The notes under the pieces: generated by a model | What the model saw: the letters and a program-made list of their open reading frames with translations, nothing else | What the model was told of the DNA's origin: nothing | Database searches by the model: none | From: Candidatus Cloacimonadota bacterium | GTDB taxonomy: Bacteria > Cloacimonadota > Cloacimonadia > Cloacimonadales > Cloacimonadaceae | Reading direction: 5' to 3' | Assembly (NCBI GenBank): GCA_029565595.1 | Contig: JAKQNV010000161.1 | Coordinates: 1 to 54,365, forward strand | Length of the DNA: 54,365 nucleotides | Program-made: the position numbers and the translations under genes | Part shown: positions 5,593 to 53,259 of the stretch, piece by piece | Layout of the letters: every line of letters begins with the position of its first letter | Position numbering within the stretch: position 1 is the stretch's first letter

Positions 5593-6576
5593 TCAATCCA
5601 CGATTTTTACACTGCCGTGCTCGGCGATCCATTTTTCCGCGCGGGCTTGCAGCTGTTGTAACTCCTCCTCAGTGAGTTCCCTGCTCACTTTTTCATAGAT
5701 GTAACGCGCCGATTCGTGGTTGTTGGCGGCGGCCAGCTTCCACCAGAAAATCGCCTCCAGGTCATCTTTTGGGACTCCGTTGCCGGTGTGGTAGCAATTC
5801 CCCAAAACGTATTGCCCGTCGGCAAAACCCTGTTCGGCGGCCATTTTGAACCATTTTACGGCTTCGGTATAATCGCGGGGAACGCCATCGCCGTTGTAGT
5901 AAACGGTTCCCAGGTTGAATTGCGCTCCGGCATGTCCCTGTAGGGCTGCGGAATGATACCAACTGATGGCTTCGATGGCATCCTGGGACGTTCCCTCGCC
6001 GAAGTTGTAACAGCAGCCCAAGCTGTATTGCGCCTTGGCGTACCCGCTTTGCGCGGCGCGACGGAACCATTTGACCGCTTCAACTTTGTCCACTTCAGTC
6101 CCTTCTCCGAAATTGTAACAGCAGCCAAGACAGTATTGGGCTTTCGAATAGCCCTGATCGGACGCCAGACGGAACCAGCGCAACGCGATCGCGCAATCGA
6201 CCGGCACGCCTAAACCCATGCCGTGGCAAAGTCCCATGCTGTATTGGGCTTCCGGAAGGCCCTGGTTGGCGGCTACGGAAAACCAGTTGTAAGCAGCGCT
6301 GTAATCCTTTTCCACCCCGTCGCCGTTGAAATAGCAGAGGCCCAGATTGTACTGCGCCCGGGCATAATTCCTTTCGGCGGCCAACTTTAGCCACTTGATC
6401 GCCTCGCGTTTGTTTTTGGCGACGCCCAGGCCGGTGTCGTAGCACATGGCGAGGTTGTACTGCGCTTCGGCGTTGTTGTCCTTTGCCTTTTGCACAAGGT
6501 CACGGTTGTAAATCTGTTCCGCCAGGAGCATTTCACAGCTTACTGTCATCAGTAATAATAGAATGACATAACGCAT
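5593..6576 (-). CDS. Secreted Sel1-repeat protein
   Basis: Signal peptide plus about 7 repeats of the A(Q/R)YxLGxCYxxGxGVxxDxxEAxxWxxxAAxxGxA type. Confidence 0.92.
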   Translation of the reverse strand: MRYVILLLLMTVSCEMLLAEQIYNRDLVQKAKDNNAEAQYNLAMCYDTGLGVAKNKREAIKWLKLAAERNYARAQYNLGLCYFNGDGVEKDYSAAYNWFSVAANQGLPEAQYSMGLCHGMGLGVPVDCAIALRWFRLASDQGYSKAQYCLGCCYNFGEGTEVDKVEAVKWFRRAAQSGYAKAQYSLGCCYNFGEGTSQDAIEAISWYHSAALQGHAGAQFNLGTVYYNGDGVPRDYTEAVKWFKMAAEQGFADGQYVLGNCYHTGNGVPKDDLEAIFWWKLAAANNHESARYIYEKVSRELTEEELQQLQARAEKWIAEHGSVKIVD

Positions 6577-6696
6577 TTTACGCCTCCATCTATGATTACT
6601 TATACATACATAATAATCAACAAACTTCTGGAAAAAAGGATATTCTTCTCCCTATCGAGCGCCATGTCCATCTTTCTCCGCAGCCTTTATCACTTC

Positions 6697-6762
6697 TTAG
6701 TCAAGCCTTAATCAAGCGTTAATAATTAAGACTTGATTAAGGCTTGATTATGACTTGATTAA
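6697..6762. repeat. Palindrome built of 11-bp units (TTAATCAAGCN / NGCTTGATTAA), family B
   Basis: Six consecutive 11-mers: TTAGTCAAGCC TTAATCAAGCG TTAATAATTAA GACTTGATTAA GGCTTGATTAT GACTTGATTAA; exact 16-bp inverted pair TCAAGCCTTAATCAAG (6701-6716) / CTTGATTAAGGCTTGA (6732-6747). Confidence 0.9.
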
Positions 6763-6898
6763 CGCTTTGGAGCGAGGATGAGCCGTCCTGAAATAGCTTG
6801 ACTCGTCGTTAGGAGGATGGCTGTAAAACTTGGATATCCTGGCTGTTGTTCAAAAAGATGGGGCCGCTGTTGAAACTATCTATCCGATTGCCAAAAAA

Positions 6899-7426
6899 TC
6901 ACTTAATCCGCAGTCCCGTTTCCTGATGGATAAACTGCCGGTGCGACTCGAAAGCGATCGGTGGCAAGGCGTCCAGAGGAAAAAACCTGGCTTCGGCGGC
7001 ATCGTCCCCGGCCTGAAGGGTTCCACCGGTAATCTCCATGCGGAAACAAAGGCTGAGCACTTTTTCCACGACCGGGCTATAGCCGAAATGCCAGCCGATG
7101 AAATGGCCAATTTTGCCCTCCAGTCCGGTTTCCTCGCGCAGTTCCGCGCTGGCGTTTTCCTCCGGGCTCAGATAGATCTCCATGTAGCCGCTGGGCAGCG
7201 CCCACTCGCCCGGATTGGGCTCGAAGATCCGTTTGACCAGGAGCAGCTCGCGCCTGTCGTTCAAAACCAGCATCGCCACGGCCGGTACGGGATTTTTGTA
7301 ATAGGTCCAGCCGCAGGCCGGGCAAACGGGCCGGAGTTTGCCCTCGCGGTCGCTGACCAGATCGAGTCTGGCTCCGCAGCTGAGGCAGAAATTCGCGTTG
7401 GCATAGCTATTCGCGTTTGTTTCCAT
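6899..7426 (-). CDS. NUDIX hydrolase with N-terminal zinc ribbon
   Basis: METNANSYANANFCLSCGARLDL...CPACGWTYYKNPVPAVAML; Nudix box GYMEIYLSPEENASAELREETGLEG. Confidence 0.88.
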   Translation of the reverse strand: METNANSYANANFCLSCGARLDLVSDREGKLRPVCPACGWTYYKNPVPAVAMLVLNDRRELLLVKRIFEPNPGEWALPSGYMEIYLSPEENASAELREETGLEGKIGHFIGWHFGYSPVVEKVLSLCFRMEITGGTLQAGDDAAEARFFPLDALPPIAFESHRQFIHQETGLRIK

Positions 7427-7830
7427 AAGTTGGCAGTGTGGCGCGGGACGGATTTTTGTCAATTGGTTTGGCTGTTGCTTTTCCAAACGTTCCCTGAAAA
7501 AAACTGTCAGAAGCGTCAGCCAGCACTTTTATGCCTCTCATTGTCAGACTATAGATTTCTTTCTCCATGCCTATTCATGTTATCCTGCCAAGGCAGCGTG
7601 CATGGACTTCGTGATTATTATTCTGGTTTGCGCTGAGTAAAGAAAAGTGCCTAAGTCGCTGCTCCTATATAGATCTACTCCAGCCTGGCAGGAATTGTGA
7701 TTTGACCGTCACGGCGATCCGGCTTTTTTGACTTGTTGTGAAAATCAGCCGTATTTTACTAAATATTGTCGCGCAGGGAATGGAAATTGCTTCTCTTTCC
7801 AAGAACATCCAAACGGAAAAGGAGGATACA

Positions 7831-19393: not shown

Positions 19394-19492
19394 CGAACCT
19401 TTTTTCGCTGGATAACCACGGAAAAACCGCCAATCTCACTTTTTGACGCCGGAACGTCCTTCCCGTAAGCTTTTCCCCTCTTCCCCCTTGCG

Positions 19493-19563
19493 ATCAATAC
19501 GGGATCAATACGGGATCAATACGGATTTCATCCGTAATGATCCCGTATTGATCCCGTATTGAT
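19493..19563. repeat. 71-bp 11-bp-unit palindrome, copy 1 (centre TTC)
   Basis: ATCAATACGGGATCAATACGGGATCAATACGGAT-TTC-ATCCGTAATGATCCCGTATTGATCCCGTATTGAT; 34-nt arms, one mismatched pair. Confidence 0.97.
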
Positions 19564-31933: not shown

Positions 31934-32135
31934 CGCCGGCTGCGCAACCTGGAAGAAAAAGCCGCAAAACAAAAACAATAGAAAAAGTCGAATCCTTTTA
32001 ATTCCTATCCACGCAGTGGAATTTTAAGCAGCTATCCGGCCTTAGCTGCGGTAGGAAAATCTCCTGATATTTTCGTGATTTTCTGGTGTTGCTGCTGTTT
32101 CCAAAATCACTTTTTCCGCTCTTTTCCTCCTTTCG

Positions 32136-32206
32136 ATCAATACGGGATCAATACGGGATCATTACGGATGAAATCCGTATTGATCCCGTATTGATCCCGT
32201 AATGAT
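32136..32206. repeat. 71-bp 11-bp-unit palindrome, copy 2 (centre GAA)
   Basis: ATCAATACGGGATCAATACGGGATCATTACGGAT-GAA-ATCCGTATTGATCCCGTATTGATCCCGTAATGAT; two mismatched pairs. Confidence 0.97.
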
Positions 32207-40558: not shown

Positions 40559-40629
40559 ATCATTACGGGATCAATACGGGATCAATACGGGTGAAATCCG
40601 TATTGATCCCGTATTGATTCCGTATTGAC
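40559..40629. repeat. 71-bp 11-bp-unit palindrome, copy 3 (centre GAA, most degenerate)
   Basis: ATCATTACGGGATCAATACGGGATCAATACGGGT-GAA-ATCCGTATTGATCCCGTATTGATTCCGTATTGAC. Confidence 0.96.
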
Positions 40630-40720
40630 AAAGAGGGCGGTCTGATTAATTTGTCCTTAAAAGGCAGATATGGAGTCACTTCCGTGTCTGTGCAAAACCA
40701 CGAAAAGGAAGTAAAACGCA

Positions 40721-41170
40721 ATGAAAGCAACCCGAGCCAATCTTTTGGGAGAATTCACCGGGACTCTGAACGGCCTGATCTATTACCGCCGCCGTCCCGG
40801 AGGCAAGATCTACGTGCGCAAGCAGTTCAAATTCAAAAACCATCCCGGACAACCCGGATTTGCCGGCGCCCAGAAAGCCATCTACGCCCTCAACCCCTCC
40901 TCCGGCTACATTCAGAACCTCAAGGATTACCTGTTGCTCTACAATCAGTTACCTGGTTTCAAAGACAAACCGGCCCAGTCCTGGACGAACCTTTACAACA
41001 AACTGATGTTCGCCCTGCAGAAAGCCCTGCCCGGCCAGGTCGTTTTGAAAAACATCACCCGCGAGCAGATCGCCGCCCAAAACCTGCCCTGCGTATCTGT
41101 GAAAGCCGCTGTGGAAGCGGGATTGCTGCCCGCGGTGCGGGACTACGAAAAGTTCAACCGCCCCTTGTGA
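40721..41170 (+). CDS. Basic hypothetical protein, family not recognised
   Basis: MKATRANLLGEFTGTLNGLIYYRRRPGGKIYVRKQFKFKNHPGQPGF...; single clean frame. Confidence 0.6.
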   Translation: MKATRANLLGEFTGTLNGLIYYRRRPGGKIYVRKQFKFKNHPGQPGFAGAQKAIYALNPSSGYIQNLKDYLLLYNQLPGFKDKPAQSWTNLYNKLMFALQKALPGQVVLKNITREQIAAQNLPCVSVKAAVEAGLLPAVRDYEKFNRPL

Positions 41171-53168: not shown

Positions 53169-53239
53169 ATCATTACGGGATCAATACGGGATCAATACGG
53201 ATTTCATCCGTATTGATCCCGTATTGATCCCGTATTGAT
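53169..53239. repeat. 71-bp 11-bp-unit palindrome, copy 4 (centre TTC)
   Basis: ATCATTACGGGATCAATACGGGATCAATACGGAT-TTC-ATCCGTATTGATCCCGTATTGATCCCGTATTGAT; one mismatched pair. Confidence 0.97.
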
Positions 53240-53259
53240 CGCGAGAGCCGAGTCGCCAA

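Follow-up and report, generated by a model that had tools for sequence, protein, structure and literature searches.

The palindrome at 6697-6762 raises the question of what kind of element is built in this way, and whether it belongs to a wider class. The window, by which we mean the whole stretch of 54,365 bases analysed here, is one contig of a 2,062,541-base assembly of 190 contigs that is 83.7% complete. The six contiguous 11-mers at 6697-6762 indeed read exactly as the preliminary description wrote them, and its exact 16-bp inverted pair was located at 6701-6716 (TCAAGCCTTAATCAAG, left half, plus strand) and 6732-6747 (CTTGATTAAGGCTTGA, right half, plus strand), about a centre at 6724. 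The 11-mer at the centre, TTAATAATTAA (6719-6729), is self-complementary as described apart from its middle base. This core, which is of the unit type that we call B, is complementary at 27 of 33 flanking positions and lies inside a full imperfect palindrome (6676-6772) with 48-nt arms of 79% complementarity, the left end of which departs from the type B consensus ends TCCGCCCTTG...CAAGGGCGGA. Folded as a single strand and compared with dinucleotide shuffles, the palindrome gave z values of -6.4 as RNA and -7.9 as DNA, and none of 200 shuffles equalled it. It sits in the gap between the genes of a Sel1-repeat protein (5593-6576) and a NUDIX protein (6899-7486), both on the minus strand and both outside the element. 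The locus had been introduced as a second palindrome; it is a real one but not an isolated one, as about 20 type B copies exist in the genome.

Two-unit matches to type B (CTTGATTAAGG) numbered 27 and 24 on the two strands of the host genome (reversed-pattern control, 1 and 0), and those to type A (ATCAATACGGG) numbered 79 and 78 (control, 0 and 0); with several matches per element, these correspond to an estimated ~20 type B and ~50 type A elements. Type A palindromes in the window lie at 19492-19563 (centre 19528), 32135-32206 (centre 32171), 40559-40628 (centre 40594) and 53169-53240 (centre 53204). A palindrome scan that was blind to sequence and covered 665 kb of the host genome, read as stretches, returned 39 strong palindromes (one counted twice because stretches overlap), 38 of which had 11 as their best period, all of them type A or B, while mononucleotide shuffles of the same 665 kb yielded no palindrome of such strength. 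Consistent with this, 96 tandem arrays with period 11 were counted in 1.91 Mb, compared with at most 12 for any other period, and an inverted partner was missing in only four of the 96.

Thirty-six of 37 copies are intergenic, and the remaining one overlaps a predicted gene near a contig end. Copies with two flanking genes (32) lie in tandem (18), convergent (8) and divergent (6) gaps; the background for gaps of at least 100 bp is 94:28:44 in the same order, and placement tracks the supply of long gaps in each orientation. The loops showed no evident orientation bias. No target-site duplication was detected around 28 and 14 copies, a sample of limited power, and no clean empty site was recovered, a type B copy aligning with G005 on one side only. 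Searches of phage records, plasmid records and viral contigs gave no match to the element, no Rfam family matched the window, and we found no literature on such repeats in this bacterial group. Regular chromosomal spacing was also considered (intervals in the window are 12.8, 12.6, 8.4 and 12.6 kb) and was rejected, as element positions in G003, read by eye, look irregular.

Aligned at their centres, types A and B carry ATCA at six shared offsets, three in each arm. An arm approximates three 11-bp units, each of one helical turn, and the two arms flank a short asymmetric centre. The centre of type A is asymmetric (GAA/TTC), and the innermost units of type B are mostly unlike between the arms; the type A consensus end reads GGCYCT.... 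Some arm columns are systematically non-complementary and present in both orientations, namely type A positions 36 (T/C 14, G/A 7) and 45 (G/G 14, C/C 6) and type B positions 6 (G/G in 11 of 14) and 30-31. Copying of an imperfect founder palindrome, with inversion of its inner segments, would account for these columns. At the variable arm positions of type A in the host genome, complementarity was below the expectation from base frequencies, which is unlike a hairpin under strong pairing selection. Across genera, the inner palindrome of type B is strongly conserved and covariation links its arms: both members had changed in 10 pairs, compared with 1-4 when the partner was slid, and the covariation score was 0.117, compared with 0.011-0.033 in the slid controls. 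The signal is clearest in the second unit (AAG/CTT, TAC/GTA, CCC/GGG). Either symmetric recognition of the duplex or a folded single strand would yield such covariation.

The preliminary description proposed a class of elements defined by unit length and an ATCAA core. A generic pattern, ATCAA-N6-ATCAA..TTGAT-N6-TTGAT, was found in 15 of 61 genomes, all of the same family as the window, and never with the reversed control; it brought out a distinct unit type, ATCAAGAGCAA/ATCAAGTCGAA, in G019. The units of other relatives are ATCAATACGGT/A in G003, TCATTGCGCGG in G005 and ATAAATACGGG/A in G010 and G012. Period-11 palindromes without ATCAA occur in G013, G016, G021, G028 and G030, with TATAACCTTAG in G013, GAGTCTTCACC in G030 and GCAATGGGTAA in G021 among the further unit types. 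The other genomes of the family yielded 50 strong palindromes over 953 kb; 42 had period 11 and none had any other period, the period-11 count being raised somewhat by stretches with known type B relatives; some relative stretches had been picked for holding elements or Y1 genes, which biases densities, and the further unit types turned up without being searched for. Other families of the order (297 kb) gave two strong palindromes, one with period 11. A single period-11 palindrome with GTTAGGAGAAT-type units was observed in G049, from another family of the order (L225, 16992). The proposed class thus stands in part. Further 11-bp-periodic palindromes of other sequence do exist, with several unit types in one genome and many across the family. 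ATCAA is common to types A and B and to some relatives, but as a universal, defining core it is ruled out by the family members that lack it. Since unit types without ATCAA exist, the class is defined by unit length and palindromy.

We then compared matching loci between species, taking as anchor for orthology a gene without a Pfam match (40745-41170, plus strand) downstream of the 40594 element. A palindrome lies upstream of this gene in G000, G007, G010 and G012, 151-172 bp from the start codon; G003 has a half copy upstream of its orthologue, and G005 carries an element of the TCATTGCGCG type in the same gap, ~300 bp off. Counted over 71 positions, identities to the consensus of the own genome and of the best other genome were 67 and 65 for G000, 61 and 45 for G005, 62 and 59 for G007 (on a single comparison copy) and 68 and 66 for G010, a lead of just two positions for G000 and G010, and the G012 copy has the sequence of the G012 consensus. 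By these sequence comparisons, the intact copies appear to fit the dialect of their own genome best, as expected under concerted evolution. The G012 copy is moreover offset by one 11-bp unit, which leaves the conserved TTGACA outside it, and the units of the G003 half copy are unlike those of other G003 copies. Both features look like replacement, the signature of copy-over, rather than stepwise change. Different dialects were also found at matching places in two more pairs, G003/G012 and G003/G010, and the place in G005 that matches the 19528 element holds an element of another unit type. These matching-locus dialects bear out the earlier suggestion that units diverge and re-homogenise within genomes. 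The gap between the NUDIX and Sel1 genes holds an element in G000 and G005 only, among the genomes seen, and in most other gaps examined the element is not common to different species, being absent at the projected place; sites are thus gained and lost too.

In the element at 40594, TTGACA occupies the outermost right unit of G000, G003, G007 and G010 in place of the family's TTGAT; in G012 it is found one unit outwards and falls outside the palindrome. All five species have a -10-like hexamer 16 bp past TTGACA (window 40618-40660). The pair is promoter-like in sequence and may be regarded as putative -35 and -10 boxes.

Taken together, these results make it reasonably probable that the palindromes are an interspersed non-coding family of the REP/REPIN-like kind, acting at the DNA level and copied into new sites and over existing copies by way of a trans-acting factor. 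A protein of this kind may contact the same face of successive helical turns, and such turn-by-turn contact would account for both the 11-bp phasing and the two-fold symmetry. Driven or permitted by this protein, the element would be copied to further intergenic sites and over existing copies, which would periodically rewrite each genome in one dialect. No gene for the factor was found, and the missing empty site and target duplication, the narrow dialect leads of G000 and G010, the gain and loss of sites between species and the low complementarity of variable type A arm positions also count against this reading. A bolder form, which we put forward only tentatively, is that of a so far undescribed class of chromosomal palindromes in which each unit spans one helical turn and a multi-domain protein reads successive turns. 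Their loci would outlast the divergence of species, and copy-over would rewrite the whole set in a new dialect in each lineage.

It is also conceivable, if rather doubtful, that the palindromes are arrays for a regulatory or nucleoid DNA-binding protein of drifting specificity, in which each site evolves by selected point mutations and none is copied from another. The usual three units per arm, the shared ATCA offsets of types A and B, the conserved inner palindrome of type B with its symmetric arm changes, and the apparent co-option into a -35 box at 40594 are all in keeping with such arrays. However, replacement is suggested by the G012 copy, shifted by one unit, and by the G003 half copy, written in a different dialect; placement follows the availability of gaps, convergent ones included, and the spacing in G003 looks irregular. 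The strong RNA fold and the compensatory changes would suit a transcription terminator or transcript stabiliser, but the occurrence of copies between genes in all orientations, divergent and convergent gaps included, and the lack of loop bias argue against any transcript element; the consensus moreover has no T-run after the stem, and the window lacks an Rfam match. We therefore regard an RNA hairpin as very improbable.

Two explanations by known mobile elements have to be weighed as well. Mobilisation of REP/REPINs by a Y1 transposase, either a RAYT or an IS200-type enzyme, is brought to mind by the only Y1 gene found in the host genome, whose distance to the type B copy of highest perfection is ~230 bp, and by an element density of 0.145 per kb within 1 kb of 42 Y1 genes, compared with 0.061 further off (2.4-fold). 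However, the flanks of Y1 genes are intergenic, which is where the elements usually lie anyway, and the host gene, which has another repeat (CCGTCCCTACGGGACTC) upstream, encodes an IS200 TnpA (NF033573, 80 bits, above cut-off) and not a RAYT (score 19, cut-off 80). The RAYT family (NF047646) was absent from six element carriers (G000, G004, G005, G009, G011 and G012), in assemblies 71-99% complete, so that single absences are weak and jointly stronger; G004 and G009 showed no Y1 gene, and neither a GTAG nor a CGTC tag was seen by eye in the consensus ends GGC-CT (type A) and TCCGCCCT (type B). Mobilisation by Y1 enzymes is thus unlikely. Still less do we favour miniature relatives (MITEs) of a DDE insertion sequence, perhaps of the IS that abuts the copies. 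All seven junctions seen, which come from two species and involve type A palindromes, do place the IS end (TGTCAACTTTTTTAGGACG[C/A]GACA, the IS ending TTTTTTAGGACGCGACA) exactly 11 nt away from the outermost ATCA; four are in the host genome (L092, L093, L121, L335) and three in G003 (L156, L339, L340), in stretches mostly chosen for their palindromes. The gene beside this end encodes a product that resembles HTH_Tnp_1 but scores slightly below the Pfam cut-off, and other, different IS-like ends abut copies in G003 (L338, L341) and G001 (L353). But the IS end is unlike the palindrome ends, no target duplication was detected, and the four of 96 arrays without an inverted partner leave no case of arms split around a gene; in 1.9 Mb, no autonomous element with split arms or palindrome-like ends was seen. 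Target-site choice is the simpler account of the junctions, as in IS insertion in REPs (PMC1525189).

REP elements and REPINs, which are REP doublets that form hairpins, go with RAYTs (PMC3116915, PMC3733652, PMC8266576), and GTAG or CGTC at the hairpin base is their defining motif (PMC3733652). Like them, the present elements are short intergenic palindromic repeats in tens to hundreds of copies, with several families in a genome, compensatory changes between the arms, sequences particular to each genome and use as IS targets. Unlike them, they have arms made of 11-bp tandem units, no GTAG/CGTC tag, and a layout that is kept while unit sequences vary by species. Because RAYT is absent from several carriers, the family is REP-like and not RAYT-associated REP. 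As in IS insertion in REPs (PMC1525189), an IS recurs at one fixed position in a dispersed palindrome, although here it is an IS with an HTH_Tnp_1-like product at the palindrome base, exactly 11 nt outside the outermost ATCA. MITEs are likewise non-coding, short, symmetric and dispersed, but here no target duplication and no parental IS with matching ends were found. Iteron-like or operator arrays consist of helically phased direct units, as does the present element, which differs from them in its dozens of dispersed copies, inverted arms and species-specific dialects. The reading that we favour is a REP/REPIN-like family of DNA palindromes, distinct in its build, with evidence for re-homogenisation at matching loci. 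Palindromic repeats of bacteria tend to be described as families of sequence. In the present ones a geometry of 11-bp units and symmetric arms stays constant and the sequence changes between species, partly at the same chromosomal positions, which offers a natural experiment on the homogenisation of the repeats and on their reader. The matching loci form a set that allows copying to be distinguished from selection.

Several further repeats were observed near Y1 genes or among relatives. Some eight repeats, each reading CCGTCCCTACGGGACTC or its complement, lie upstream of an IS200-type transposase gene (L096, 16750-17160), and more short palindromic repeats cluster by Y1 transposase genes in G003 (L159), G019 (L181) and G031 (L191). 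A palindrome family without period 11, CCCCACCCC...GGGGTGGGG and similar, occurs in G007 (L165, L166), G003 (L155) and G005 (L239).
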